DNA of 64,000 nucleotides from an uncultured Acidobacteriota bacterium. GTDB taxonomy: Bacteria > Acidobacteriota > CAIWXX01. The DNA lies in the NCBI GenBank assembly GCA_903916735.1, contig CAIWXX010000051.1, positions 1 through 64,000 on the forward strand, given 5' to 3'. Positions 4,156 through 46,735 of the stretch are shown here, piece by piece. Each line of letters opens with the position of its first letter. Position 1 is the first letter of the stretch. A model generated the notes under the pieces. That model searched no databases and was not told the DNA's origin. It saw only the letters and a program-made list of their open reading frames with translations. A program made the position numbers and the translations under genes.

Positions 4156-5302
4156 ACTCGGCCGGCCGGTCAAGGTCGTACATGTGATCAATGGCGAGAG
4201 CTTTGGTGGGATCGAGCGTGCCGTGACAACACTGGTCCAGCACCACCGCGGTGTTCACCCTGCGATCATATGCCTGATGGATGGTGACATGACTCGGTTC
4301 GGCGCATCCACTGCCGACTGCAGGATCGACCTCATCCGGATGCACAGCCGCCTTGACCCGACCGCGGCCATAGGGCTTGCACGCTACGTTCGTGCGCATC
4401 ATATCGATCTCATCCATGCTCACACCCTGAGGGCAAACCTTGTGGGGGCGATGGCCGCCCACTTCGCGCATGTGCCGGTGGTGGCAACGATCCACAGCCC
4501 TATCGCGAGGGATACTGAGGATCTCACGAGGAATCGGCGGAACTTCTGGCTGCAGCGAAAACTTTTCCGCTGGACCGCAAGATATGTTGCCGTGAGTGAG
4601 GGGCTGAGGCGCGAGGCGATCGCCTCCGGCCTCCCTCCCGCGCGCGTCGTCGTGATCCGCAACGGCATCGATGCTGTCAGGTACGGCCTTGGGGACGGGA
4701 CCGCTTTGCGCCGATCGCTTGCGGGCGTGGATGCGGACACTCCTCTGGTCGGCACACTCGCATTGCTGCGGCCGCGCAAGGGGATTGACGTGTTGCTAAG
4801 CGCCATTCCCATTGTCGCACGCTCGATTCCTCCTGCACGCGTCATCATTGCCGGCAAGGCGGAGCTGCCCGCCTACGAGCAGGAGTTGCGACGACTGGCC
4901 CGGAGCCTCGGCATCGCCGACCGTGTTCACTTTCTTGGATTCCGGAGCGATGTCCCCGATCTCCTCGCGGCACTCGACGCTTTCGTCATACCGTCATTGT
5001 TCGGGGAGGGCGCCCCGTTTGCCCTTTTGGAAGCTATGGCTGCGTCTCGCGCCGTCATCGCCACACGCACGGAGGGCAATGATGAAATCATCCTGGCAGG
5101 CTCGACCGGTGTGCTTGTCGACCCTCACGATCCGGAATCCCTCGCGAGCGCCATCGTCAATGTGCTGGCCAGTGCCGAGCACCGGCGAGAGCTCGGAGCC
5201 CGGGCGCGGCAAGCGGTGGTCGAGCGTTTCAGTGCCACGAGGATGGCCGCAGAGACAGAAGCGTTCTACTCGCGAGTCCTTGCCGCAAGAAGCTCACGGT
5301 AG
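4136..5302 (+). CDS. Glycosyltransferase family 4
   Basis: The 388-residue protein is a two-domain GT-B fold. The N-terminal half starts VVHVINGESFGGIERAV with the glycine-rich acceptor loop. The C-terminal half carries GTLALLRPRKGIDVLL, then VHFLGFRSDVPDLLAALD, and the nucleotide-sugar EX7E motif in EGAPFALLEAMAASRAV. GT4 enzymes are retaining cytoplasmic transferases using sugar nucleotides. The ATG at 4136 is chosen because GGGAGG lies six bases upstream and the conserved N-terminus follows directly. The gene begins inside the flippase end and converges with the next gene, the two coding ends overlapping by 37 bases. Confidence 0.88.
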   Translation: MAIPCVELGRPVKVVHVINGESFGGIERAVTTLVQHHRGVHPAIICLMDGDMTRFGASTADCRIDLIRMHSRLDPTAAIGLARYVRAHHIDLIHAHTLRANLVGAMAAHFAHVPVVATIHSPIARDTEDLTRNRRNFWLQRKLFRWTARYVAVSEGLRREAIASGLPPARVVVIRNGIDAVRYGLGDGTALRRSLAGVDADTPLVGTLALLRPRKGIDVLLSAIPIVARSIPPARVIIAGKAELPAYEQELRRLARSLGIADRVHFLGFRSDVPDLLAALDAFVIPSLFGEGAPFALLEAMAASRAVIATRTEGNDEIILAGSTGVLVDPHDPESLASAIVNVLASAEHRRELGARARQAVVERFSATRMAAETEAFYSRVLAARSSR

Positions 5303-6459
5303 AGGCCGGCGTATTCCTCGCGTTGTGCAACGGCACCGTATTTCAACAGCGCATGCGCCTGTGCCGCGCGTCCCATGGCCTGTGCTGCATCGGGATGCGC
5401 AAGGATGTACATCAACGCCCCGGCCAGGGCGACGGCATCTCCCGGCTCGACGAGCAGACCTGTCTGATCGTGTTCGATGATCTCCCGGTTCGCTGCGAGG
5501 TTGGATGCAATAACCGCCTTGCCTGCCGACATCGCCTCGAGCAATGCCAGAGACATGCCCTCCTGTCGAGATGGCAGGCAGAACACGTCCGCTGCAGCGA
5601 GGAGATCCGCAACATCGTCCCTCGCTCCGAGGAAGCGGACCCGCTTCGTGATGCCGGCGCCTTCGGCCAGGGCCTTCAGTGCGGCTTCTGCTGGTCCGCT
5701 CCCGGCAACCAGGAACACCGCATCTGGGATGCCTGCCAAGACGATCGGCGCGGCATCGATCAGGTAATCGCATCCCTTCACCGCCGCGAGCCGACCGATG
5801 AATAAAATCACACCGGCGCCGCGGGGCACGCCAAGCTCGGCGCGCACGTCGTCGCGTGGGCGTGCGCCGGCGTACTTCCGCGGGCTCGGCGCGTTTGCGA
5901 TGACAAAAATCTTCTCGTCCACTCGGCCGATTTCGGCGATCACCACCCGGCGGATGTCCTCGGAGACGCACACGATGGCATCCACCTGAGCGGCCGTGGC
6001 GCGGTACATCCAGCGACAGGCGATTTTCCTCGCCCACAGAGTCGGCCCGCGCCGCGCAGGCAGGAAGTCAGGACCGTGAAACGTCCAGATGACCGTGGGT
6101 CCATGCGGCGCACGCCGCAGGCGGATGACCACGAGGTCGAGGAAATTGAGCAGATGCGTCTGGATCACGTCGATCCTATGGCGCTCCACGAGCTTTGCGA
6201 GCTGAGCCCCGATGCGCTTTAGCTCCGCTCGGTAGCTAAAAGCGCGCGAGAACTTACAGGAAGGCCTGCGAACGATCTCCACCGAGGCGCCGGCCGCTTC
6301 CAGCCTCGCCCGCAATGGACCGTCCGCAAGGGCGCATACGAGGAACCCGCCCCCGACCGTGTTGTTTGCTTCGGCCAGCACGCACAGAGTCTCCTGGGCG
6401 CCGCCGTGATCGAGATCGAGGATGACGTGCATTACGCGGGGATCAACAGGGCCGCTCAT
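5266..6459 (-). CDS. Glycosyltransferase family 4
   Basis: This second GT4 enzyme of about 397 residues is transcribed toward the first. It shows HVILDLDHGGAQETL at the N-terminus, FIGRLAAVKGCDYLIDA at the start of the donor domain, and the EX7E motif in EGMSLALLEAMSAGKAV. Its role is to add one sugar to the lipid-linked repeat unit in the cytoplasm. I place the start at the ATG at 6459 because GGAG lies four bases upstream; a GTG at 6471 is in frame. It overlaps the upstream O-antigen ligase by 17 bases. Strongly GC-rich codon use (42 of 60 bases in 5941-6000) sets it apart from the core genes. Confidence 0.88.
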   Translation of the reverse strand: MSGPVDPRVMHVILDLDHGGAQETLCVLAEANNTVGGGFLVCALADGPLRARLEAAGASVEIVRRPSCKFSRAFSYRAELKRIGAQLAKLVERHRIDVIQTHLLNFLDLVVIRLRRAPHGPTVIWTFHGPDFLPARRGPTLWARKIACRWMYRATAAQVDAIVCVSEDIRRVVIAEIGRVDEKIFVIANAPSPRKYAGARPRDDVRAELGVPRGAGVILFIGRLAAVKGCDYLIDAAPIVLAGIPDAVFLVAGSGPAEAALKALAEGAGITKRVRFLGARDDVADLLAAADVFCLPSRQEGMSLALLEAMSAGKAVIASNLAANREIIEHDQTGLLVEPGDAVALAGALMYILAHPDAAQAMGRAAQAHALLKYGAVAQREEYAGLYRELLAARTRE

Positions 6460-7780
6460 GTCGCTCCACACGGACGGCTACGAGCCCGAGGATGAGCCAC
6501 GCCAGTCCCGACGTACAGGCCAGGAATCGCAGGTCAATCGACATGCTGATGACCACGAGGAAGGCCATATTGGCCCAGAGTGTGATGAGGAGGCGGTCGA
6601 CTTTGGAGTACCATAAAGCTCTGGCTGATCGGACCAGAACCCATGCCAGCGGGAAGGCGAGGCATGCGTAGCCGACTATGCCCAGCTCCGCCAGGATCGA
6701 GATGTGACTGTTGTGAGACGCTGCTTGGTATCGGTCCCAGTCGGATGGTACAAAAGGCCCGGTTCTCTCGATAAAGCCCCTGGCGTGGCGGTCGTAAGAG
6801 CCGAAGCCCCAACCTAGCAACGGCTTGTCCAGGAACATTTTCACGCCGGCGGCGCCGAGGACGACGCGATCGGCGACCGTCTGCGAGTTGCCCAGACGCT
6901 CGATCGCGTAGCTCTTCCTGTCGACCTGCGTGGATTGAGACGGCGCGGTGGTGCCCGCTCCGCTCGATCCCGGCCCCACCCGGACGCGAGCCGCACCAGT
7001 CGGCAGATGCGAGAGCAAGACCACTGCCGGAACGATAGCCATGACCGGGATGGCGAGCCGCCTCCGGTAGGCCGTAGCAAGCAGACCCAAGGCCACGGCA
7101 CTGCCAATCCAACTTGCGCGAGAGAAGCTGACGAAGCCGGCGGAGAAACCGATGACAAGCAATCCACTGCCAAACGCCCTGGCGGGCAGGCCGGGCTTGG
7201 ACGAGAGGAAGTGAAAACAGAAGGTTGCGGCCAAGACGAGCATGGCGACATAGCCATCGGGATGTGTCATGGTGCCGGTGACCCTCAGGCCACCCATCTC
7301 GATCACTACCCCTGGCCAGAAGCGCGGGAGCGCGGTGGGCAGGAGCAGGCCGAGAGCCCCAGTGACCGCCTCCAGGATGCACAGCCCCGCCAGGATCGGC
7401 ACCCATGCCGCCAATTGCGGCTCCTCGATCCTGGAAACCCGGACCAGCCAAAACGCGGCGAACGGTACGAGGAACACGCGGTCGAGCTCGGTCAGGTTCT
7501 TGAGCGTCGTCACGTGCGACTCGCCCTCGAACAGGATCGATGCCAGCGCACCGGCCACGAACAGCACCATGGCGAGGTCGCCCAGACCGGGTCGGAACGC
7601 AGGCAGATCGTTACTCCTTTTGAGCCGCAGCAGCAGGAGCAGCAGAAGCGCGAGGGGGAGTAAGGCGTATGTGTTGAACAGGTAGAGCGGCCTCAGCATT
7701 GACAGCCGAGGAATCAATGCCCCGAGAACCACCCAGGCGATTAGGATGTGTGGGGTTTGCCGACCGATGCCCTGGTTCAT
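6443..7780 (-). CDS. O-antigen ligase / Wzy-like polymerase (multi-pass membrane protein)
   Basis: The 445-residue protein has about ten to twelve hydrophobic segments. A large periplasmic loop near residues 255-350 carries the O-antigen ligase (Wzy_C) signature GWGFGSYDRHARGFIE and ASHNSHISILAELGIVG. Members either ligate O-antigen to lipid A-core (WaaL) or polymerise repeat units (Wzy), and sequence alone does not separate them. Two glycosyltransferases, a flippase and a phosphoglycosyltransferase nearby support a Wzx/Wzy-type pathway. It is divergent from the WecG fusion gene. TAGAAT lies nine bases before its ATG, suggesting a leaderless or very short-leader mRNA. Confidence 0.85.
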   Translation of the reverse strand: MNQGIGRQTPHILIAWVVLGALIPRLSMLRPLYLFNTYALLPLALLLLLLLRLKRSNDLPAFRPGLGDLAMVLFVAGALASILFEGESHVTTLKNLTELDRVFLVPFAAFWLVRVSRIEEPQLAAWVPILAGLCILEAVTGALGLLLPTALPRFWPGVVIEMGGLRVTGTMTHPDGYVAMLVLAATFCFHFLSSKPGLPARAFGSGLLVIGFSAGFVSFSRASWIGSAVALGLLATAYRRRLAIPVMAIVPAVVLLSHLPTGAARVRVGPGSSGAGTTAPSQSTQVDRKSYAIERLGNSQTVADRVVLGAAGVKMFLDKPLLGWGFGSYDRHARGFIERTGPFVPSDWDRYQAASHNSHISILAELGIVGYACLAFPLAWVLVRSARALWYSKVDRLLITLWANMAFLVVISMSIDLRFLACTSGLAWLILGLVAVRVERHERPC

Positions 7781-7789
7781 AAGCGGGCG

Positions 7790-7823
7790 ATTCTACTCCA
7801 TAGGCATTCACCTATGCTATTAT
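7790..7823. promoter_or_regulatory. Divergent promoter region with central inverted repeat
   Basis: Between the divergent starts at 7780 (minus) and 7833 (plus) lie two -10-like boxes. TAGAAT on the minus strand is at 7790-7795. TATTAT on the plus strand is at 7818-7823, preceded by TGC (an extended -10). Each ends nine bases from its start codon. Between them CATAGG (7799-7804) and CCTATG (7811-7816) form an inverted repeat with a six-base spacer, placed to let one regulator act on both promoters. No convincing -35 boxes are seen. Confidence 0.45.
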
Positions 7824-7832
7824 GCGGCGAAC

Positions 7833-9254
7833 TTGGAGGTACGCATTCTCACCGACGACCCGCTGATCGAGCGTGCTGCCGAACCCGCCATTCGCCAGGC
7901 AGCACCGGAAACCGAGCGCATTCCAAAGAGGAGTTTCCTGGGGATAGATATCTCTGTCACGAGCCGCGCCGATGTGATCCGCTTCATCACTCAGACTGCC
8001 CGCTCGCGCGGCAAAGCACTGGTCAACAACGTCAACGCTCAAGCGATGAACATCGCTCATCGTGACGCGCGCTTCGCTGCCATCCTCAACGACTCTGACA
8101 TCGTCTTCTGCGATGGCTTCGGTGTGAAGGCGCTGGCGCGCCTTGCCGGCATCCGCATCGGGGAGAGGATGACCCCTCGCGAGTGGGTTGATGAATTGCT
8201 CGATCGCTGCGTGCAAGAACGGCTCTCCCTATACTTTCTGGGGTGCGAAGAAGAGGTGGTGCAAGCGTTTGCGGACGAGGTCGCGCGGCGCCACCCGCGC
8301 GCGATTATCGCCGGGTGTAACCATGGGTACTTCGACGTGCGGGGCGAGGACAACCGAAGCGTGATCACAGCCATCAACAATTCCGGAGCCGATGTCGTCC
8401 TGGTTGGGATGGGCATGCCACGGCAGGAGATTTGGGCTCACGATGCCTTGCCGGAGCTCGACCGAGGTGTTGTCGTCGCCGTCGGTGCGCTGTTCAAAGT
8501 CTATGCTGGAATCGAGAAGCCCTGCCCTGAGTGGATGAGCCGGTGCGGATTCGAGTGGCTTTGGCGATTGGTCCACGAACCCCTCCGACTCGGCCGCCGA
8601 TACTTCGCCGGCAACCCGGCGTTGTTCCTGCGGGTCTGCTACGCGGCATTCGTCAAGCGGCTCATCGAATTCTTCCTGGCCAGTATGCTTTTCGCTCTCT
8701 GCACGCCGGTGCTCGCACTGTTCTGTGCGCTCATCCGGCTGGAGACGCAGGGGTCTGCGCTATTCCGGCAGAAACGGGTGGGCAAGAACGGTGAACGATT
8801 CTGGATATACAAGCTCCGCACATTGAAACCTGACTTCCCGCCATACGCTTCGAAACGCCATGTCTCATCTGAGAGCGCCACCCGCCTCGGCCGTTTCCTG
8901 AGGCGTTCGACGATTGATGAGCTTCCTCAACTCATCAACGTCATCCGTGGCGATATGGCACTCATTGGGCCGCGGCCGGAGATGCCGTTCATCGCCGACA
9001 GCTATCGGGGTGTCGAGACGCTTCGCCTCTCCGTCAAGCCGGGGCTCACTGGACTCTGGCAGATCGCGCGACTGCGGGGAGAGACCGACGGACGCGAGAT
9101 CCACGAGGACATTACGTACGACCTCAACTACGTCCGGCGGGTAGGGATTTTCCTCGACATGAGGATCTTCGTGCAAACCGTGTTCTATCTCGCTGCCATG
9201 CCGTTCAGGGGGCTTTTCGGCGGACGCGAGAAAGCCTCGCGCGACCTCGCCTGA
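7833..9254 (+). CDS. WecG/TagA/CpsF glycosyltransferase fused to a bacterial sugar transferase (PGT)
   Basis: The N-terminal ~240 residues are a GT26 domain: FLGIDISVTSR, LVNNVNAQAMN, SDIVFCDGFGV, LYFLGCEEEVV, VVLVGMGMPRQEIWAHD and VVAVGALFKVYAG. One hydrophobic re-entrant segment (LIEFFLASMLFALCTPVLAL) follows. Then comes a monotopic phosphoglycosyltransferase domain with FRQKRVGKNGERFWIYKLRT, STIDELPQLINVIRGDMALI, GPRPEMP and LSVKPGLTGLWQI. PGTs attach the first sugar phosphate to undecaprenyl phosphate, and GT26 enzymes add a sugar to such a lipid carrier, so one chain could perform two early steps. The TTG start avoids overlapping the divergent gene; ATG 7746 is in frame. The 3' end overlaps the next gene by 70 bases. 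Confidence 0.85.
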   Translation: MEVRILTDDPLIERAAEPAIRQAAPETERIPKRSFLGIDISVTSRADVIRFITQTARSRGKALVNNVNAQAMNIAHRDARFAAILNDSDIVFCDGFGVKALARLAGIRIGERMTPREWVDELLDRCVQERLSLYFLGCEEEVVQAFADEVARRHPRAIIAGCNHGYFDVRGEDNRSVITAINNSGADVVLVGMGMPRQEIWAHDALPELDRGVVVAVGALFKVYAGIEKPCPEWMSRCGFEWLWRLVHEPLRLGRRYFAGNPALFLRVCYAAFVKRLIEFFLASMLFALCTPVLALFCALIRLETQGSALFRQKRVGKNGERFWIYKLRTLKPDFPPYASKRHVSSESATRLGRFLRRSTIDELPQLINVIRGDMALIGPRPEMPFIADSYRGVETLRLSVKPGLTGLWQIARLRGETDGREIHEDITYDLNYVRRVGIFLDMRIFVQTVFYLAAMPFRGLFGGREKASRDLA

Positions 9255-10891
9255 AGCACGATCCCGGCGACCTTCAGCAGACATCGCTCCTCGACCGGGC
9301 GGAATCCGGCCTTCTCAATGGCACGTCGGGACGCCGTGTTGCTCCGCGACGCCGCGATCACCATGCGCATGCCCGGATGGGCGATACACACCTGGCTGAG
9401 CAGGTGTGGATAGAGGTTCCGGCCGCGCCACTCGGGAACGGTGAGCCCGTCAAAGATGTACACTGTCCCAGGACCGATGTCGACGACGCACTCGACCTCG
9501 GGGATGAAGACACACGGCCCCTTGTCGACCCAGGAATAGGACACGACCTTCTCTCCGTGCTTGATGGTGAAACACTTCATCCCCTTGTCGAGTCGCCGAG
9601 CTGCGGTGTCACGGAAAGAGCTCTGCTCGTTGCGGTCCAACCGGCAGGCGAAGGCGTCGAGGTCTGAGCGAGATGCCGGCGCGAAAGAAAGCCCCCGGCC
9701 GCGCGCGGTGACGGCCATGTGAGGCTCCGTCGGTTCCCTCTCGAAGATGATGATCGTCTGGTGCTTGAAGAGAACCTCGCGCATCCAGCGTCGCAGGGGC
9801 CTCAGGTAAGACCTCCACCGCTTGGTGCCCGACAGCGCCCGCCCCAGAAGGCTCGCACCGGCCCGCTCTGTGAACCCCGATGTTCTCAGCCGGAACCTGC
9901 ACATGGAGAGGCCCGCCTCCACCACGATCCGTTTGAGCGCGAAGAGGTCATCGGCAGCAGCATTGAGCCCGCTGATCGTTGTTACGCCGCAGCTGAAGCC
10001 GCTGTTCCGAATGAGCTCCTTGAGGCTGTCGTCGAAGTCCCCGAGTTGGCCGTTCGGATAGGCGAACGGCACGCTCTGGACGCTCAGGAGTTGCTGGAAC
10101 CTCGCCATCGAATTGCAGACTTCGTGTGATCGAGATTCACGATCGAGTCGCGTGAGTATCTCATGATGGTGCGCGTGGGCTCCGACACTAAGCCAGCCGG
10201 ATTGAGTGATCTCCTCCAGCTCCGCGGCTGTGAGCGTGGCGAATGTCTCGCGGTTGTCGCTTGTCGCGGGTTGAGCTTCGAGGCGGTGCAGGATCGACGC
10301 CAGGACGTCAGCCTTCTCGAAAGCAGGCAGCGTCTTCAGGAACTGGGCGATCGCCGGCAGCGCCCCCTGGGCGAGGCCGTGGGTCCCGAGAACGTATCGC
10401 CCTCCGCCGTCGTCGCCGAGGTCCAGCTCTGTGACGGCGCTGCGCGCGAGCGCCAGGTAGAGTTGGTCGTGCCAAAGGAGCTCGGGAGAGTCGAATGAAC
10501 TCGTGACCAGGAACACCGTGGCTGGGACACGCAAGCATTGGAGGAGGGGCAATGCTCGCTGCCGGACCGAAGCGTATCCATCGTCGAAGGTCAGAACCAC
10601 CACCCGATCCGGCAGCGGTTGGCCATCCCGCAACCGTGCCACGACATCATCGAGCCGCATGACCTGATAACGATTCACCAGCCATTTCAGCTGCCTGGCG
10701 AGTTCCGCTTCGACGACCATCCATGGGCAGGGAGGATCAAGCGGCATCTCCACCACACCGTGATACGCAAGGATCAGGATTTTGCGTCGGTTGATTGCTC
10801 TGAAGAGAATGTCGACCCCCAAGGCGCAGAGCACCTGGCTTACGACTTCCTTGGCAAATGATGCAGATCGAAGTACGTTTTTGTCGATCAT
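9185..10891 (-). CDS. Polysaccharide deacetylase (NodB) fused to a GNAT-like domain
   Basis: The 568-residue protein has an N-terminal carbohydrate esterase 4/NodB domain. It shows ILAYHGV, then VVLTFDDGYASV with the catalytic Asp and metal-binding Asp, GAHAHHHEILTRL with the metal His residues, and VPFAYPNGQLGDFDD. After ~residue 375 a second domain of ~180 residues follows (KCFTIKHGEKVVSYSW, TVYIFDGLTVPEWRGRNLYPHLL, ASRSNTASRRAIEKAGFRPV), typical of a GNAT acetyltransferase. Deacetylation plus acyl transfer on one chain suggests replacing one N-substituent of an amino sugar by another; this is inference. No signal peptide is apparent. It converges with and overlaps the WecG fusion gene. Confidence 0.82.
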   Translation of the reverse strand: MIDKNVLRSASFAKEVVSQVLCALGVDILFRAINRRKILILAYHGVVEMPLDPPCPWMVVEAELARQLKWLVNRYQVMRLDDVVARLRDGQPLPDRVVVLTFDDGYASVRQRALPLLQCLRVPATVFLVTSSFDSPELLWHDQLYLALARSAVTELDLGDDGGGRYVLGTHGLAQGALPAIAQFLKTLPAFEKADVLASILHRLEAQPATSDNRETFATLTAAELEEITQSGWLSVGAHAHHHEILTRLDRESRSHEVCNSMARFQQLLSVQSVPFAYPNGQLGDFDDSLKELIRNSGFSCGVTTISGLNAAADDLFALKRIVVEAGLSMCRFRLRTSGFTERAGASLLGRALSGTKRWRSYLRPLRRWMREVLFKHQTIIIFEREPTEPHMAVTARGRGLSFAPASRSDLDAFACRLDRNEQSSFRDTAARRLDKGMKCFTIKHGEKVVSYSWVDKGPCVFIPEVECVVDIGPGTVYIFDGLTVPEWRGRNLYPHLLSQVCIAHPGMRMVIAASRSNTASRRAIEKAGFRPVEERCLLKVAGIVLQARSREAFSRPPKSPLNGMAAR

Positions 10892-10971
10892 ATAAACAAA
10901 TGAAGAACCTTCATACCAGCTCTTTGTCGTCTATTATGCACAACTATTTTTCAACCTATCGCAATCAGGAG

Positions 10972-11496
10972 CTATTCAGAGGGTGCCAGATTTGGAAAAC
11001 GCATTTCGCTCATCAGCACACCAAGATCGCGGTCATCGTCACTCAAGCCGATTTTTTTAGGATTAAATGTCCTGTTGACCTCTGTTCGTATGTGTATCCA
11101 CCGACCCCGCATTCCCTGCACATGAAGCACAACGGTCTTTGCACTGCTTTGTTCCAAGCTTGATGTTTCCATGAGTTTATCGTCGACATATACTTTTAGG
11201 ATCAATTCTTTCTGGCTTGGCCTCCTGAAGGACAGATCAAGCGCATCGAAGCTTAAATATAGAATGATGATCACCGAGTAGGCATCGTAGCGTCGAGGGA
11301 CAACTTCCCATCTATTTCGAGTGGATGCGCAAGGAGCAACAGTCGCGGCCTTGCTCACCGCCGCGAGTATGGCCATGCACAGAAGCAGCACAAGCCCAAG
11401 CCATTCAACATGGTAATCAATTCTTAAAACAGAGTTAAAAATGCCAAACGAAAGTAAGAATATGGCGTTCAGAAAAGCGTAAATAAAATATAGCAT
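10972..11496 (-). CDS. Hypothetical two-helix membrane protein
   Basis: I do not recognise this ~174-residue protein. It opens with two hydrophobic segments (MLYFIYAFLNAIFLLSFGIF and LGLVLLLCMAILAA), then a soluble domain of ~110 residues. That domain contains VLHVQGMRGRWIHIRTEVNR and NPKKIGLSDDDRDLGVLMS. The last motif resembles one I have seen at the ends of membrane glycosyltransferases, so a sugar-binding role is possible but unproven. The ATG at 11496 is preferred to an in-frame TTG at 11532. The region is visibly AT-richer than the polysaccharide genes. A promoter with a perfect TATAAT lies 235 bases upstream. Confidence 0.6.
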   Translation of the reverse strand: MLYFIYAFLNAIFLLSFGIFNSVLRIDYHVEWLGLVLLLCMAILAAVSKAATVAPCASTRNRWEVVPRRYDAYSVIIILYLSFDALDLSFRRPSQKELILKVYVDDKLMETSSLEQSSAKTVVLHVQGMRGRWIHIRTEVNRTFNPKKIGLSDDDRDLGVLMSEMRFPNLAPSE

Positions 11497-38223: not shown

Positions 38224-39165
38224 TCAATGCGCCGCTGATGCTTCGACAGCCGCTTCGGCTTGAGGCCTGGAGATCTCTATCATACGGAAAGCCCATTTCA
38301 TCATTTCCCTGATCTCTTCCGATGTCGGCTGATACTTGGCGAACTTGACCAGATCACCTCGATCAAGAAAATCACGGAGAATTTTGTAGACATTAACCGG
38401 AAGTGATTTGGCCGAATCGATCATGATCTCCATCGTCGTTCGTTCTTCGACCGGTACGCCGTGCCTGCGAAAAACATAGTGCTTGAGGATCTCTGTGAGT
38501 CTGACACAAAATTCCTTGAATTCGTTTCGCCTTAGCAGACCCGCGGCTTCCAAGCGCTTCAATGCTTCCATCGCTTCCTCTTCGGGAGAAAGCAGTATCT
38601 GAACCGGCGAGGGTCGACCACCCTCTTCCTCTCGGCTTCGACGCCGTTTCCAAAACCACCACAAAAGAACGAGTACCGCCACCAGGCCCAGGACCACTGC
38701 CAGCCACAGCCACGGCACTTCAAATGGGATTGCCATTGGCCCTTTGATATCTTCGATCCCTTTCTCCTGACCTGTCAGAACAGTGGAGATATCGATTTCG
38801 CCGGGGGCGCTGCGGAAAATCCGGGAGATGGGGGTGAGTTGCTTGATTTCAATTGGTGGAACCGTGAATTTTCCTGTCTTGTACACGGCAAGATCGAAAG
38901 AGATGGATCTCTTGAGGGTGCCGTCGGGCTGTTTCTCGGGAATTCCCTGATTGACCGCCAGCACTTCCAAATCACCGATCTTCCAGCTTGTGGACGGGAT
39001 TTCGAATGTCGCTCCTTGCGAATACTGGAGCGTCACGGTGAGATGAATCGGATCGCCGACATGCACCGATTTGGGCTGAATATCGGTTGGGAGCTCATCA
39101 GACGCAATAAGCGTGTGAGAAAAGTGCGGAATAAAAATGAGAAGCAGGGCGAGCACTCGCCTCAT
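38224..39165 (-). CDS. BatD/DUF4381-like membrane-anchored protein
   Basis: The 313-residue protein has a signal peptide (RVLALLLIFIPHFSHTLIA) and a periplasmic beta-sandwich of ~120 residues (KSVHVGDPIHLTVTLQYSQG, FDLAVYKTGKFTVPPIEI). A transmembrane helix follows (WLWLAVVLGLVAVLVLLWWF, ~150-172), then a cytoplasmic helical tail (RNEFKEFCVRLTEILKHYVF, PVEERTTMEIM). This layout is shared by BatD and DUF4381 proteins of MoxR/Bat operons. The gene overlaps the DUF58 stop by four bases. These systems usually work with a MoxR AAA+ ATPase, which is not adjacent here. Confidence 0.8.
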   Translation of the reverse strand: MRRVLALLLIFIPHFSHTLIASDELPTDIQPKSVHVGDPIHLTVTLQYSQGATFEIPSTSWKIGDLEVLAVNQGIPEKQPDGTLKRSISFDLAVYKTGKFTVPPIEIKQLTPISRIFRSAPGEIDISTVLTGQEKGIEDIKGPMAIPFEVPWLWLAVVLGLVAVLVLLWWFWKRRRSREEEGGRPSPVQILLSPEEEAMEALKRLEAAGLLRRNEFKEFCVRLTEILKHYVFRRHGVPVEERTTMEIMIDSAKSLPVNVYKILRDFLDRGDLVKFAKYQPTSEEIREMMKWAFRMIEISRPQAEAAVEASAAH

Positions 39166-40040
39166 CTGAGTCTCCGCACTCGGGTTGCAAAGAATTTCCG
39201 GAGTCGCGCTTCATACGAAGCATGAGTCGACAGATCTATTTTATCTACACCTGTAGAAAGAAAGAGTTTCGAAAAATTCTCGCGCCGTCGGCGCATGGCG
39301 TATTCGATGTGCTTGCGCACCCGGGGGGAGCTCGTGTCTACGAGCTCCTCTCGACCCGTTTCAGCGTCCCGCAGGCTGATCAGTCCGACATCCGGCACTC
39401 CGTACTCGCGATCATCCTCGGGCACAACGGCGATGAGATCGTATTTCCGCGCCGCCACCCTGAAAATCTTTTCGTATCCCTCATCCAAAAAATCCGACAG
39501 GATGAAGACGACGGCCGTTTTCTTTTGGATGTTGATGAGATACCGGAGGGCTGTGTTGATCGATGTGCCTCTCTCCTTCGGCTCGTAGTAAAGCACATCC
39601 CGGATGATACTCAGGGCATGTATCCTCCCCTTTTTCGGCGGAATGAACTTTTCAACCCGATTCGTAAAAATGATCATCCCGACGCGGTCGTTGTTCAGCA
39701 CAGCCGAAAATGCAAGAGCCGCGGCAATCTCGGCTTGCAATTCACGCTTCGTCCGGAGGCGGGTTCCGAAGAGTGAAGAACCGCTGGCATCAAGGAGAAG
39801 CATGACCGTCAACTCGCGCTCCTCCATGAATTGCTTGACGAACAGATGTCCCATACGCGAGGAGACATTCCAATCGATCAGCCGAATATCATCGCCTGGA
39901 ACATATTCACGTACTTCCGCGAATTCCATCCCGCGGCCCTTGAAGATCGAGTGGTATTCCCCGGCGAAGGTATCCTCGACCAGTTTGCGGGTACGGATCT
40001 CCAGTCGCCGGATCTTTTTCAAAAACTCACGCGGTATCAC
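39162..40040 (-). CDS. DUF58 domain protein (von Willebrand-A-like)
   Basis: The 292-residue protein carries the DUF58 hallmark EVREYVPGDDIRLIDWNVSS (~40-60) and a von Willebrand-A-like core whose MIDAS motif is seen as LLLDASGSS. Further blocks are RVGMIIFTNRVEKFIPPKKG and FILSDFLDEGYEKIFRVAAR. Such proteins partner with MoxR ATPases and Bat proteins in envelope or stress functions. The start is GTG. On the minus strand TTGACG, 16 bases, TGTACT and nine bases precede it, another possible short-leader promoter. It is divergent from the TamB-TamA gene. Confidence 0.88.
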   Translation of the reverse strand: MIPREFLKKIRRLEIRTRKLVEDTFAGEYHSIFKGRGMEFAEVREYVPGDDIRLIDWNVSSRMGHLFVKQFMEERELTVMLLLDASGSSLFGTRLRTKRELQAEIAAALAFSAVLNNDRVGMIIFTNRVEKFIPPKKGRIHALSIIRDVLYYEPKERGTSINTALRYLINIQKKTAVVFILSDFLDEGYEKIFRVAARKYDLIAVVPEDDREYGVPDVGLISLRDAETGREELVDTSSPRVRKHIEYAMRRRRENFSKLFLSTGVDKIDLSTHASYEARLRKFFATRVRRLR

Positions 40041-40231
40041 AAGAGGTTAAGTACAATAAATGGAGAGGCGCCGTCAATCCACCAGGCAAGTCTCCATTTT
40101 GGTGTTCTAAAAATGGCGTTGCAAATTCGATTGATTTCCGTCTGATCGCTTGATCGTCATCGATGGATCCGCTAAAGCAAGAAGCATCCATGACGTCATT
40201 AAATGAATGTGTTCAATGTGAACGTTTTGGC

Positions 40232-40240
40232 TGATATACT
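40232..40240 (+). promoter_or_regulatory. Extended -10 promoter of the TamB-TamA gene
   Basis: TGA-TATACT (40232-40240) is an extended -10 element ending ten bases before the GTG at 40251. The -35 position (TTCAAT, 40212-40217, 17-base spacing) is weak, which extended -10 promoters tolerate. It lies inside the longer possible reading frame from ATG 40203, arguing for the GTG as true start. Confidence 0.5.
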
Positions 40241-40250
40241 ATCGCCTATT

Positions 40251-43200
40251 GTGAATCCAGGCAGGAAGCTCGTTCGATTCGTCAAGTGGCTTGGTGTTGC
40301 CCTGCTGTCTTTCATCGCGTTCGGCGCTGTCGCTCTTTTCGTCCTTCTGGCGGTCGTGCCGCGATACATCCTGCCGGATCTTCTAAATTCAGCCGGGATC
40401 GGCTTCTCCTACGATCGAGCCGATTTCGACCCCATTTCCCTCCGAATGGATTTCGCACAAGTGCGTGTCAGCTATCGGGGACAGAATGTTCTTATTTCGC
40501 AGCACATTCTTTTTGACATCGGGCTTTCGATGCATGGTGCTACGTTGGATATCAATTTCATCAGGCCGATATTCACGGTTCTCCGTAGTGAGGCAGGCTC
40601 ATTTGTCCTGCCATTCCCAGAAACGACTCATAAAACTGCGCATAACCTGATGGTGTTGCGATCGATAAAAGTCGATCAGGGAACCATCACTTATCAGGAT
40701 CGTCGGACGGGATTGACCATCGACATCCGGAATTTCCAGCTCGATATGACATCCGGTCCCCCCTCGATCCTCACGCTGCGATCCCCAACCTGCCGGATCA
40801 CATATGGCCGGCGGGCGATCGAATCAAAGGTGCGCTTGCAAGCCATTCTGGACGATCCGGTCCGAATCCAGCTCATGGAATGGATGAGTGATGGATTGAC
40901 ACTCAGCATGAAAAACCAGGTCCTCAACACCAAGGCGCTTGCCTTCGATGTCGACGGCCGTCTGGATGCGGCGAAATTTCTCCAGGCGACTGGGATCAGA
41001 TCTTTGGTGGATGCACAAGTCGACTTCACCGCGGATTTTGATCTGCCGGCACGACGAATGCGTGTCACCGCTCATTCCAACCGGCTGCGAACGGCATCGA
41101 TTCAGATGGATGACATCAACGGGGAATGTGCCATCGCCGCGGATGGCACTTCTGATGCACACATCACAACCCGCATCGCTGGGGGTCGCGCCGGCTTGCA
41201 GATGGCAACCGATCACGGGAAAACAAGAGCCGATATTCAATTGGAACAAGTGGATCCACGCCAACTTCCTCCTGTATCAAAAAGGCTGCCGATCACCCCT
41301 GCAACAACCATCTCCGGAAAGGTCCGGCTGGATTGGAGAGGTTTGCTGCAACCAGTGGATCTGCGAGGCCACACAGAACTTGTGCTCAATTCCTCGCATG
41401 CAGCGAAGGGCGAAATGCCTCTCACGGGACAGTTCAGCGCCGACTACGAAAAAGGTGCTCTTCAGATAAGACCTTCCCGCGTTCATGTTGGATCGGCGGC
41501 GGCGGTTGATTTTGAGGGCTCTCTCGCACCAAAGGCGATCGATCTCCAATTTAGTGCCGGCGTTGTTGAGATCAAACAGTTTCTAAAGGACACGATCGGC
41601 GACAGAATCGCCTTGCCGGAAAAATTGAGCGGGACCGCATCGCTCGTCGGCAGGCTCAGCGGAGATGGATCATCTCTGGCCGCCCGATTCGAATCACCAC
41701 TCATCCATCTCGGCGGAAAAGAAATATCGAACATCAGCAGTTCAATTGATGTGGCGGGACGAACTATTGAGATATCCGATTTTCAATGCCGCACTCTCGG
41801 TGGAACCCTTTCAGGGCATGGGTCGATCCGCGAGAAGGATTATTCCGCCTATCTCAGGGGAGAATCGCTCCATCTCAGCACTCTCTCACCGATCTTCACG
41901 GAAGGCATCTGCGGCTTCACAGCGAGCGGCAACGGACCACTGGGAGATCTGAGCATTGCTGGGCAGTTGGCGGTGGATGGCGCCGCTACATCCATGACCA
42001 TTCCAGAATCATTCGGTGGTACCTTCGAGTTGAACAAGCGTCGATTACTCGCTGAATTCCAAAGCTCCGATGAAAACCTCGGCGGATCCTTTCAGATGGA
42101 TCTGGCCACTCCATATCCAGTTCATCTGATGACCAGTTTCATTAACATTCCAGCAGCAGAGATACTGACACGCTACAAGGGCAAAACCGATTTTCAAGCC
42201 ACAGCTACAGGGTTTCTAGATATATCGGCTGAGCTCCTGGCTCCACACTGCCTCGAAGGGCGCATTGTGCTGAACGATGTCGACCTCCGATTCGATGAAT
42301 TTGGGCTTAATAACAAGGACGATATTGTCGTGAGCCTCTCTCCGGATTTTGTCGATTTTCATCACTTGACCATGGAAGGAATGCGAAAGCATTTTAGTGT
42401 CAGGGGTGTCCTGCCTCTTGCAGAAGGACAGCCGGCTGATTTCCATCTGGAAGGGCTTCTCGATCTCGAAGTTCTGGAGATCCTCATTCCAGGGATGCGA
42501 GCCTCAGGGACCCTGGGAGGCGAAGCCTCGTTCATCGGAGTCAGGCCGGCCATTGAAACCTCAGGACTCCTTTTTCTTGACCATGTCTCTCTGACTTATC
42601 CGCGCATTCCTTTCTCCACGAAAGAGGTCACTGGGAATCTGGTGTTGAAGGGTAATGAGGTTCATTTGCAAGAAATCCATGGAATCCTGGACCAGGGTCA
42701 ATTTTCTGTTTCGGGTGTGATTCCACTGGATGCCCTTCCCATTACATCCACTCGCTCACCCCGCAACATCGATCTTCACTTAACGGTCCAGTCCTTCGGC
42801 ACGAGCAACTTCACGCGGCTGATTCCAGAAAAACTGCGTCGTGCGTTCAGTGCAACCGCTGATGCCGATGTCACATTCGGAGGGAACTTTCGATCTCTCA
42901 ACACTGTGACTATCGATGGCGCCATCACCAACACCAAGATCACTCTCCTCGGAAAGCCCTTTCCTGGTCAGTCGGCACCTTACCGGATCATAAAACGCGG
43001 CGATTCCATCGAGCTCACCGATGTGCATCTCGCAGGTGGAGGAATCGACATCTCCGGAACAGCCCGCCTGAACTTCGGCGAGGGAAAGCCACCCTACATT
43101 CACAGCTCTGTGAAGGCCGATATTCAAAACCAATTCCTGCAATCTTACCTGCCCATGGCGAAATTCGGCGGCAGCACTTCACTGAGTGTCAACGTCGAAG

Positions 43201-45770
43201 GTGTTCTGGCAAAGCCCGCTATCGAAGGAACGCTGATGGTGAAAGACAGCTCGGCCGGCTTTTCCATGCAGCGCATCGATTTGACCGCGGCCAATGGAAA
43301 GATCGACTTTACCGGGCGAACTGCGCACGCGACAGGCGTCGCTATGCTTAATGGAGGCGCTGTTGAGCTGGATGGCAGCGCCACAATCGACGGTATCAAA
43401 TTAACCGGCCTTTTAGTCGATACCTCGTTTAACGGCTGTGGGACATTTATTCCGGACGGCCTGCAAGGCAAGTTTGAAGGGCGGACAACTCTCAGCCTCC
43501 TGCGAAATGGGAGATACCTTCTCGATGGCGATCTCTGGCTTCGCGATGGCATATTTCGCAGGAATTTCCGGCTCGGACAAGAGCTACTCGCCAGCTTCCC
43601 GTCCAAACAAGGGAAGCCGACTGCACGTCCCTTTCCCGATCTAATGTTGGATCTACGCCTCTCACCGGTTGATCTGATCAACGTCAAAAACAATATCGCC
43701 GATATTCGTCTGAAGGGAGACGTGGCGCTCCGGGGAACTGTCGGGAAACCCCGTCTCTATGGTCAGATCGATGCATCACCAAATGGCATTTTTCGATTTC
43801 AGGGGCGCGATTACAAGGTCGAAACGTGTACGCTCAGTTTTGAAGGCAATGAGGGATTCGATCCTCACCTGAATATTCAGGCGACAGTCAACGTCACGGT
43901 CAATCTCCAACGGCGGAACGCATTTGCCTCCAGCTCGGGAACCTCCCATGTCATCAAAGCAACACTAACAGGAAAACTCTCCAATACGAATCTCAACCTT
44001 CAAGATATTCAGGGGCAACCACCGCTCTCGGAAATTGAAGCGGCGTCGCTGTTGCTGACAGGGCAGATCGTCGGAGAAGGATCGACGACCAGCAAGGATG
44101 CTCTTAAGAACCAAATGGCCCGCTTTATAGGTGGGAGTGTCGGGAATACTTTCCTGCCGGTCATCGGCCGCAAGCTCGGCATCGACCAGTTCGACATTCA
44201 ACCAAATTACATCTCCAATGAAACGGATACTCCGACAGCCCGTGCCATCATCGGTAAGGATCTCGGCGGTGGTTTCTTTTTCACCTACTCTCCTGACCTG
44301 TCCAACTCTCAACGCTATCTGTGGATGCTCGACTATCAGATGGGAAGAAACGTGGCGCTCCGAGCCGGACGGCAGGATGATGCCTCCTACCAAGGACGCG
44401 TCTCGCACAATTTGAGTTTTAATCTCTTTGCAGGCCGTAAGCTTGAGCCGGCGATCTCACTCAAAAGTGCACCGCCACAAAGAATGGAAACCGGGAAGCA
44501 ATACATCACAGAGATCACAATCGATGGTTTGAAAGCCACTGATCCCGGCATTGTCCTCCGGCAACTCACTTTCAAAGCCGGAGATGTGCTCGACTATAAC
44601 CAGATTTTTCAATCACAACGACTTCTCTATGGTCTTAATCTTTTTCGAAGCGTGCGGATTTATCCGGAGAGAATACCCGGGCACGATGGCCTCGTCATTA
44701 TTCGCGTCGCTCTTATGGAGCAAAACGTTTACCAGTTCTTCTACGGACTGAGGTATAACACCGAAGGGAAAATTGCCGGCGTTGTCAACACTCAGAATCC
44801 GGAAGGGTTCGATGGGGAGCTGGAAGTGCATAACATCAATGTCCTGGGCAAGGGAATCGATGCAGGCCTCTACACCAGACAGAGCAAGCCGGAGCGGAAT
44901 TATCGATTGACAATGGCATTCCCATATTTCTCCAAGCGCAAAATCAGTACGACCGTTCTCGTGTATAAGAAAGATCTGACACAAGAGTTACCGATTGGCA
45001 CTTTCCTCTCTCACATCCCTGGCGCCAGCCTGCTTGTGGAAAGGAACTTGACCAAGAAGATATCTCTTCAGTATTTCATGAATTATAAAAGAACGACCTA
45101 CATCGAAATCAATCCAATTAATCATCTGCCAGTTTCGCAATATACTTTTACGCGCGATCGGCTGGGAATGACCCTCGTTGGGGATTTTCGTGATGATCGG
45201 CTCAATGCCAAAAAAGGCATTTTTTGCAGCACAACACTGGAATATCAGCCTCGGCTGCTGGGAGCAGATCTAAGGTTATTTAAGACTTTTAGCCAGGTCA
45301 GATTTTATTATACGCTATTCAATAAACTGACCTTGGCCGCGAGCAGCGGCATCGGGGTTATTGATACATTTGGGCAAGCACTGTATGACGGCGATGCATT
45401 TTTTGTTGGCGGGAGCTCCTCAGTGCGGAGTTACCAAGAAGACAACCTCGGTCCTCGTGACCCCTATAGCCTAGATCCTAATCAACCATGGGGAGGACGT
45501 GCGGTTGTTGTTTACAACCAGGAAGCACGATTCCCACTCCACTCGATCACGAAGAGAATCAAGCTTGGTGGAGTTCTTTTTCACGATGCAGGCAACGTTT
45601 TCCGGGATATTGCAGATTTCAAGCCATTTGACGTCAGACATGCTGTCGGATTCGGGCTTCGATTCGACACGCCGTACTCCCTCTTCCGCCTGGATTTTGG
45701 CGTCACCGTCAAACCTCACCCGGGCGAAGATCGACAGCGGCTCACATTCGGTATCGGGCAGATGTTCTGA
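40251..45770 (+). CDS. tamB: TamB-TamA fusion: TamB beta-taco joined to POTRA and Omp85 barrel
   Basis: One open frame encodes ~1839 residues. An N-terminal inner-membrane helix (WLGVALLSFIAFGAVALFVL) starts an AsmA/TamB-like chain of beta repeats filling the periplasm. It closes near 1400 with the TamB C-terminal block (GGGFFFTYSPDLSNSQRYLW). One POTRA domain follows (~1415-1490: ITEITIDGLKATDPGIVLRQ), then an Omp85 barrel (~1495-1839). The barrel has VGGSSSVRSY (1719-1728, the VRGF/Y loop), VLFHDAGNVF (1775-1784) and a terminal beta-signal ending in Phe (LTFGIGQMF). In E. coli TamB and TamA are separate partners that move lipid or protein to the outer membrane. ATG 40203 is an alternative start. 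Confidence 0.93.
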   Translation: MNPGRKLVRFVKWLGVALLSFIAFGAVALFVLLAVVPRYILPDLLNSAGIGFSYDRADFDPISLRMDFAQVRVSYRGQNVLISQHILFDIGLSMHGATLDINFIRPIFTVLRSEAGSFVLPFPETTHKTAHNLMVLRSIKVDQGTITYQDRRTGLTIDIRNFQLDMTSGPPSILTLRSPTCRITYGRRAIESKVRLQAILDDPVRIQLMEWMSDGLTLSMKNQVLNTKALAFDVDGRLDAAKFLQATGIRSLVDAQVDFTADFDLPARRMRVTAHSNRLRTASIQMDDINGECAIAADGTSDAHITTRIAGGRAGLQMATDHGKTRADIQLEQVDPRQLPPVSKRLPITPATTISGKVRLDWRGLLQPVDLRGHTELVLNSSHAAKGEMPLTGQFSADYEKGALQIRPSRVHVGSAAAVDFEGSLAPKAIDLQFSAGVVEIKQFLKDTIGDRIALPEKLSGTASLVGRLSGDGSSLAARFESPLIHLGGKEISNISSSIDVAGRTIEISDFQCRTLGGTLSGHGSIREKDYSAYLRGESLHLSTLSPIFTEGICGFTASGNGPLGDLSIAGQLAVDGAATSMTIPESFGGTFELNKRRLLAEFQSSDENLGGSFQMDLATPYPVHLMTSFINIPAAEILTRYKGKTDFQATATGFLDISAELLAPHCLEGRIVLNDVDLRFDEFGLNNKDDIVVSLSPDFVDFHHLTMEGMRKHFSVRGVLPLAEGQPADFHLEGLLDLEVLEILIPGMRASGTLGGEASFIGVRPAIETSGLLFLDHVSLTYPRIPFSTKEVTGNLVLKGNEVHLQEIHGILDQGQFSVSGVIPLDALPITSTRSPRNIDLHLTVQSFGTSNFTRLIPEKLRRAFSATADADVTFGGNFRSLNTVTIDGAITNTKITLLGKPFPGQSAPYRIIKRGDSIELTDVHLAGGGIDISGTARLNFGEGKPPYIHSSVKADIQNQFLQSYLPMAKFGGSTSLSVNVEGVLAKPAIEGTLMVKDSSAGFSMQRIDLTAANGKIDFTGRTAHATGVAMLNGGAVELDGSATIDGIKLTGLLVDTSFNGCGTFIPDGLQGKFEGRTTLSLLRNGRYLLDGDLWLRDGIFRRNFRLGQELLASFPSKQGKPTARPFPDLMLDLRLSPVDLINVKNNIADIRLKGDVALRGTVGKPRLYGQIDASPNGIFRFQGRDYKVETCTLSFEGNEGFDPHLNIQATVNVTVNLQRRNAFASSSGTSHVIKATLTGKLSNTNLNLQDIQGQPPLSEIEAASLLLTGQIVGEGSTTSKDALKNQMARFIGGSVGNTFLPVIGRKLGIDQFDIQPNYISNETDTPTARAIIGKDLGGGFFFTYSPDLSNSQRYLWMLDYQMGRNVALRAGRQDDASYQGRVSHNLSFNLFAGRKLEPAISLKSAPPQRMETGKQYITEITIDGLKATDPGIVLRQLTFKAGDVLDYNQIFQSQRLLYGLNLFRSVRIYPERIPGHDGLVIIRVALMEQNVYQFFYGLRYNTEGKIAGVVNTQNPEGFDGELEVHNINVLGKGIDAGLYTRQSKPERNYRLTMAFPYFSKRKISTTVLVYKKDLTQELPIGTFLSHIPGASLLVERNLTKKISLQYFMNYKRTTYIEINPINHLPVSQYTFTRDRLGMTLVGDFRDDRLNAKKGIFCSTTLEYQPRLLGADLRLFKTFSQVRFYYTLFNKLTLAASSGIGVIDTFGQALYDGDAFFVGGSSSVRSYQEDNLGPRDPYSLDPNQPWGGRAVVVYNQEARFPLHSITKRIKLGGVLFHDAGNVFRDIADFKPFDVRHAVGFGLRFDTPYSLFRLDFGVTVKPHPGEDRQRLTFGIGQMF

Positions 45771-45793: not shown

Positions 45794-46735
45794 CTATTGC
45801 TTTTCTCCGCAGTGATTGCACTTGATGGCGCGCGGGGGGAGCGGCTTGCGGCAGTTCCAGCAGAGGCTCTTGCGAGATGCCTCATCGCGAGCTCGAAGGC
45901 GCGACCGAATGTCCTCCATTTGACTCTCTTTCCGGGTAATGCCGAGTGCCGCTTCCATTTCACGGAGAAGTTCGCCGGCGTTCGGGTAGCGGGCTTTGAC
46001 ATCGGTGGCGAGCGCTTTTGAACAGATGTCACTGATGGCGCGAGGCACCGATGAGTTCTTGAGTTTGAGAGGAGATATTTTGCCTTGGAGTGCGAGCTTC
46101 TCCATCATCGCCGGATTGGGATGAAAAAGCGGCGGTGAGCCTGCCATCATTTCGTAGAAAATGCAACCCAAAGAATAAATATCCGACGCAAGCACAGCCT
46201 TGCCCAGGAATTGCTCCGGGGCCATATAAGGAGGCGACCCGATGCGAGTCTGAGCAAATCCCTTCGTCTCCAGAAATGTCGATGTCCCGAAATCCGTGAT
46301 CTTGACTGTTCCTAATTCTGAAACCAATAAATTCGAAGGTCGAAGATCGCGGTGGAGAACGTGATTCTGGTGAGCGTGCATGAGGCCGGCGCAAGCCTGG
46401 CGCAGGTAGTCAGTCGCGCGTTTGAGATCAATTGTCTTTTCACGATCGAGAATTGCTTCAAGCGACTCGCCTTTCACGTACTCCATGACCATGAAAAAGA
46501 CATCGTCTGTTTTCTCGGCGGTAATCAGGCGGACGATGTTCGGGTGATTGAGCGCCGAGTGAAGACGTGGTTCTTTGAGCAGTTGGAAAAGATCATCGGT
46601 CTGGCGATGAGGCACCTTGAGAGCGACCTTTTTATCAAGCCAGGTGTCGACTGCCAGATAAACCGCTCCGAATCCTCCCACACCGAGTGTATCCTCGATG
46701 TGGTATTTCCCGACCTGCTGTCCCTTCAGAAACAT
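45794..46735 (-). CDS. Serine/threonine protein kinase with C-terminal zinc ribbon
   Basis: The 313-residue protein is a complete Hanks-type kinase: glycine loop LGVGGFGAVY (17-26), VALK lysine 40, HRDLRPSNLL (128-137), DFG (148-150) and PYMAPEQF in the activation segment. The C-terminus holds a double CxxC zinc ribbon (CWNCRKPLPPRAIKCNHCGE). No transmembrane helix is seen, so it is soluble. Unlike the kinase-like protein at 24860-26896 it retains every catalytic residue. It converges with the TamB-TamA gene, 23 bases apart. Its substrates are unknown. A promoter with TATCAT ten bases from the ATG precedes it. Confidence 0.92.
   Translation of the reverse strand: MFLKGQQVGKYHIEDTLGVGGFGAVYLAVDTWLDKKVALKVPHRQTDDLFQLLKEPRLHSALNHPNIVRLITAEKTDDVFFMVMEYVKGESLEAILDREKTIDLKRATDYLRQACAGLMHAHQNHVLHRDLRPSNLLVSELGTVKITDFGTSTFLETKGFAQTRIGSPPYMAPEQFLGKAVLASDIYSLGCIFYEMMAGSPPLFHPNPAMMEKLALQGKISPLKLKNSSVPRAISDICSKALATDVKARYPNAGELLREMEAALGITRKESQMEDIRSRLRARDEASRKSLCWNCRKPLPPRAIKCNHCGEKQ

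Follow-up and report, generated by a model that had tools for sequence, protein, structure and literature searches.

The stretch of DNA analyzed here, a 64,000-nucleotide piece of an acidobacterial genome that we call the window, contains at positions 40203-45770 of the plus strand one uninterrupted frame of 1,855 amino acids (aa). From its N-terminus, the encoded protein comprises an inner-membrane anchor, approximately 1,000 residues of predicted beta-groove, a TamB/DUF490 domain, a linker, one POTRA domain and a 16-stranded Omp85 barrel. The first ATG of the frame is at 40203, and the start at 40251 chosen in the initial annotation is an in-frame GTG; no obvious ribosome site precedes either position, and the exact start of the gene is thus ambiguous. 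The features of the gene are as follows.

40203..45770, plus strand: tamB-omp85 fusion gene (single open frame and Pfam domains; alternative in-frame start GTG at 40251)
40266..40391, plus strand: N-terminal inner-membrane signal anchor helix (aa 22-63, hydrophobic core aa 34-52; AlphaFold2 helix, Kyte-Doolittle value 2.88)
40398..43379, plus strand: predicted AsmA/TamB-type repeating beta-groove (aa 66-1059; AlphaFold2 pLDDT 87.1, weak DUF748 and YhdP matches)
43347..44381, plus strand: TamB/DUF490 domain, PF04357 (aa 1049-1393; hmmscan E 4e-29)
44187..44420, plus strand: six C-terminal TamB strands (aa 1329-1406; AlphaFold2 and alignment of fused and split TamB ends)
44421..44489, plus strand: linker that replaces the TamB stop codon and the barrel gene's signal peptide (aa 1407-1429; alignment and linker comparison)
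44502..44720, plus strand: single POTRA domain, equivalent to the last POTRA of relatives, the preceding ones being absent (aa 1434-1506; Pfam, AlphaFold2 and alignment)
44730..45767, plus strand: 16-stranded Omp85 outer-membrane barrel (aa 1510-1855; Pfam E 1e-39 over aa 1546-1855, 16 AlphaFold2 strands)
45423..45434, plus strand: VRSY motif in loop 6, of the Omp85 VRGF/Y type (aa 1741-1744; sequence, aligned with RGF/RGY of relatives)
45741..45767, plus strand: C-terminal strand LTFGIGQMF ending in Phe, an OMP-type beta-signal (sequence)

Directly upstream of the fusion gene and divergent from it lies a DUF58/VWA and BatD-like gene pair (38224-40040, minus strand). Downstream, at 45794-46735 on the minus strand, is a Ser/Thr kinase gene whose product has a C-terminal zinc-ribbon-like CxxC pair, and which is kept downstream of the fusion in a related genus (locus L047).

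Residues 34-52 form the only strong hydrophobic segment of the protein, with a Kyte-Doolittle value of 2.88 compared to at most 1.19 past residue 80. AlphaFold2, with an alignment of relatives as input, models residues 1-1059 as a membrane helix (residues 22-63) and then continuous beta-strands, interrupted by short helices approximately every 100 residues, at a mean pLDDT of 87. At the N-terminus, Pfam matched the AsmA-like DUF748 weakly, and the top Foldseek matches of the first half were lipid-carrying beta-sheet proteins, for example ApoB100 and LptD, with TamAB matched weakly; a search of a viral fold library returned no useful match. Features by which the TamB family is recognized (Heinz et al. 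2015) are present as a predicted N-terminal inner-membrane signal anchor, a long beta-structured body (aa 66-1059) and a DUF490 domain with OMP-like terminal strands, though the last is internal here, not at the protein C-terminus.

For residues 1000-1855, the AlphaFold2 model begins with the last part of the groove and continues through short helices, some of them at low confidence, and six strands to a POTRA and sixteen barrel strands (pLDDT 81, pTM 0.57). The claim in the initial annotation of one frame running from an inner-membrane helix through TamB to a POTRA and an Omp85 barrel is borne out by the intact frame, by these two structure predictions and by Pfam profiles (hmmscan; TamB E 4e-29, Omp85 E 1e-39), among which the POTRA at aa 1434-1488 scored 19.6 bits, slightly under the cut-off of 21.3, and 25.1 bits in a genome search. 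The POTRA is modeled with a beta-alpha-alpha-beta-beta fold, and the VRSY loop and terminal Phe that had been pointed out are both in place. Together, the POTRA, the 16-strand barrel (PF01103) and the loop-6 motif identify a member of the Omp85 superfamily. The further description of the barrel as TamA-like is less apt. The BamA model TIGR03303 scored 180.9 bits and the TamA equivalog NF047950 scored 47.2 bits, both under their cut-offs (297 and a curated 625, respectively), and the protein has one POTRA compared to five in BamA and three in TamA; Foldseek matched the second half of the protein to BamA (E 9e-24) and TamA (E 5e-20). We rejected a plain TamA label because of the NF047950 score and the single POTRA. 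By profile, the barrel is nearer to BamA than to TamA and belongs to the second, BamA/TamA-like class of Acidobacteria.

The joint between the two halves was located by aligning TamB ends. The last TamB strand of the window protein, YQGRVSHNLSF, corresponds in the alignment to the strand with which unfused TamBs end; there, a strand such as GLDFRFRRRF is followed directly by a stop codon. Because the fused proteins keep this strand and then continue into a linker, the whole of TamB is retained and the joint sits at the former stop codon. The source genome is a draft of 183 contigs, and the joined frame might stem from faulty assembly or sequencing, or belong to a gene in decay; the initial annotation had named a frameshift or false join near 44.4 kb as grounds for rejecting its reading. 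An ortholog in another genus of the same family (genome G001, contig JACPPM010000222.1, Acidobacteria) is 52-58% identical over the second half. Its N-terminal half lies at the end of a second contig that overlaps the first by exactly 141 bases, the k-mer size given in the contig name, and the two contigs very probably carry one gene. The ortholog has the same join in one frame. Over the last TamB strands and the linker, the differences at codon positions 1, 2 and 3 are 0.23, 0.12 and 0.67, and amino acid identity is 71%, compared to 40% for the rest of the C-terminal half of TamB and 59% for the barrel, so that no other part of the gene is as well conserved between the two as the junction. 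A Ser/Thr kinase gene and a DUF302 gene lie downstream of the fusion in both genomes. The same junction and synteny in an independently assembled genome, together with strong codon constraint, rule out an assembly artefact, and with dozens of fused homologues at hand we consider any form of artefact or decay extremely improbable.

We surveyed 139 near-complete Acidobacteriota genomes, 120 of which encode TamB, and found verified fused frames in 32 of the 120. When public relatives are included, verified fused frames number 44 in Acidobacteriota, among them Aminicenantes and Polarisedimenticola; the 80 loci retained for the analysis were nearly all from Acidobacteriota. The joined architecture that the initial annotation proposed to seek in relatives is therefore present in them, and its concern that homologues might always be two genes, with this one isolated, can be set aside: homologues are often fused, and the idea of an isolated oddity was rejected. 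Among unfused relatives, many have tamB immediately before its omp85 partner, often overlapping it, and in Bryobacterales and other Terriglobia the order of the unfused pair is reversed. Several genomes carry fused and unfused TamB side by side. One locus (L173, G060:C205) was left out of the fused count because it has a partial barrel in a different frame from TamB; it is apparently a fused gene that is broken or carries sequencing errors. Another locus (L104) lies on a contig whose title reads Clostridiales bacterium A05DMB-I-28, but both its TamB and its barrel cluster firmly with an acidobacterial genome, and the record is probably mislabelled.

Each of the two TamB genes in the source genome is fused to Omp85; no unfused TamB was found there. 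The second fusion (contig C10; G000:C10:79383-82745, minus strand; frame 4384-11346 of locus L045) encodes a long form of 2,321 aa with several POTRAs. A separate BamA with five POTRAs is encoded on contig C170, and BamD on contig C53. Given that BamA is the best family model for the fused barrel, and that some OMPs are assembled by the E. coli TAM too (PMC11341756, PMC12800296), the window protein could be chiefly a BamA-like OMP insertase, with the TamB part merely tethering or feeding it and lipid transport not its role. We regard this as quite unlikely: a complete BamA and BamD are already available in the genome, the window copy has lost all POTRAs except the last, and a groove of approximately 1,000 residues would be superfluous for a tether. 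Two further, weaker Omp85-like barrels occur in the genome, at G000:C92:1029-1418 and C164:63924-64496 (loci L006 and L007, frames of 415 and 781 aa). In addition, an MlaD-like protein of 470 aa (L192:427-1839, minus strand; G000:C165) has an MCE domain, a long helical stretch and a C-terminal strand-rich region; it resembles the barrel-bearing MlaD of Veillonella, and a Mla-type ATPase gene adjoins it. Single-chain lipid bridges of two different kinds may be present in the organism.

Trees of TamB and barrel (73 rows) bear on how often the genes were joined. Placing all fused genes in a single clade was rejected (AU test, p 7.8e-6), ruling out one event for every fused gene, and a clade of 41 of the 44 fused frames, the window gene included, is a slightly better fit than the unconstrained tree (p 0.67). 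The remaining three (L058, L061 and L063) fall among unfused genes, in two genera of family f24 and one genome of family f9; the two f24 fusions (L058 and L061) have six to seven POTRAs. Because these three lie among unfused genes, the trees fit one old fusion, represented by the 41 frames, and at least two later ones, which would give at least three origins in the phylum, barring reversals. When the TamB half and the barrel half of the window protein were analyzed separately, both fell within the same fused group. A separate re-fusion is consequently not favored for the window gene, which most likely descends from the old tamB-omp85 fusion in Acidobacteriota.

The POTRA region is where the window protein departs from most of its relatives. 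In 42 other fused proteins this region spans 410-650 residues, and the window protein has a single POTRA. In the window protein and its ortholog, the corresponding distance is 146 residues, and the last POTRA alone is left. As both halves of the window protein lie in the same fused group, these two proteins are most simply a derived short form, that is, a fused gene that has lost its other POTRAs.

The gene encodes an anchored TamB chain whose terminal OMP-like strands are joined, through a short linker and in one conserved frame, to a POTRA-barrel. We propose, with a probability of about 0.68, that it acts as a one-piece translocation and assembly module, in which an anchored beta-groove carries phospholipid outward and the terminal TamB strands sit at the lateral gate of the barrel on the same chain. 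The Sec machinery would place the N-terminal anchor in the inner membrane, BamA and BamD would fold the C-terminal barrel into the outer membrane, and the hydrophobic groove would cross the periplasm, so that phospholipid could travel along it from the inner to the outer membrane. Outward transport of phospholipid is probable, by analogy, because E. coli TamB binds phospholipid (PMC12800296). From sequence and model, the window protein should reach from the inner to the outer membrane as a single chain; of the membrane-spanning molecule envisaged in the initial annotation, the covalent fusion thus stands, and the span is a prediction. The difficulty it saw in inserting such a molecule is real, but not unusual, given a signal-anchor N-terminus, BamA and BamD encoded elsewhere in the genome, and the same problem facing Veillonella MlaD (PMC10665443). 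Its conclusion of direct delivery from TamB into the barrel is not warranted. Fusion shows a fixed pairing and a 1:1 stoichiometry, and is evidence of an obligate TamB/Omp85 partnership, not of cargo delivery into the barrel.

A fixed 1:1 ratio might also be the whole purpose of the fusion, if the linker were cut after export to yield an ordinary two-protein TAM. In the long fused relatives, most linkers measure 12-31 residues, with A/G/P/R/S/K/E making up approximately 75%, an exposed, protease-accessible type, and sister lineages have unfused pairs. However, no cleavage motif common to the linkers was visible among the fused relatives, the flanks of the window linker are well conserved with the ortholog, and a cut short-form barrel would be missing the POTRAs by which TamB is held in E. 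coli (PMC12800296), leaving little for docking. We therefore think cleavage unlikely. In the E. coli TAM, cryo-EM shows a C-terminal TamB domain of two helices and six strands. The last strand of TamB is paired with beta1 of TamA, strands of TamB reach into the barrel, and POTRAs 1-3 contact TamB, with deletion of POTRA2 being lethal (PMC12800296). In the one-piece module, the terminal TamB strands would engage the lateral gate of their own barrel, as in this hybrid barrel, and the covalent link would take over the docking done by POTRA1-3, such that all but the last POTRA could be lost; this fits the loss seen in the short form. The geometry is permissive. Barrel beta1 begins on the periplasmic side beside the last POTRA, so an antiparallel partner strand would end there, and about 22 linker residues could easily connect the end of TamB to the last POTRA. 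In the long fused forms, the link joins TamB to the first POTRA, a long way from the barrel, and a cis arrangement is thus natural for the short form only. More tentatively, and as a possibility that we would not yet favor, the short form may hold its terminal TamB strands in cis at its own gate, with the hybrid barrel a lipid port and no general OMP insertase, and with the joining of the genes having made POTRA docking dispensable.

A fusion of TamB with Omp85 is not mentioned by Heinz et al. 2015 (PMC4494059) and was not found by a word search of a 2014 Omp85 survey (PMC4104836), and we found no description of one among the open-access papers that we searched. One gene that fixes the pairing of TamB with an Omp85 barrel provides independent evolutionary support for such a partnership outside Proteobacteria. 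The POTRA-poor fused module offers a simple one-protein system for asking whether and where TamB hands over lipid and whether a hybrid barrel works. Repeated fusion, and the presence of fused and unfused copies in the same genomes, would allow the division of labor between parallel envelope bridges to be compared.

Related partnerships are known from several envelopes. In chloroplasts, the TamB homologue Tic236 and the Omp85 channel Toc75 act across two membranes as separate proteins in protein import. The TAM of Proteobacteria (PMC12800296) shares with the window protein an inner-membrane-anchored beta-groove TamB with six C-terminal strands and an Omp85 barrel with POTRA; unlike the window protein, it consists of two polypeptides and has three POTRAs, whereas here there is one chain with one POTRA, a barrel nearer to BamA by profile and a linker after the last TamB strand. 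Heinz et al. 2015 (PMC4494059) described for Acidobacteria a second BamA that groups with TamA and a BamA-TamB operon, from which they proposed that the TAM arose. That operon comes from the same phylum and likewise ties a second BamA-type Omp85 to TamB, but its genes are separate and in the order BamA-TamB, compared to TamB-Omp85 in the fused forms; it is probably the unfused state of the same system. The TamL-TamB system of Bacteroidota also gives TamB a dedicated Omp85 partner, though TamL is a separate lipoprotein (PMC12045153). The barrel-bearing MlaD of Veillonella parvula (PMC10665443) is another single chain proposed to run from the inner membrane to its own outer-membrane barrel in phospholipid traffic, but it is an MCE hexamer of unrelated fold with a 10-strand barrel and a proposed retrograde direction. 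The components are thus known and a single-chain envelope bridge has a precedent in this MlaD; we regard the joined TamB-Omp85 form as a new variant of the TAM.
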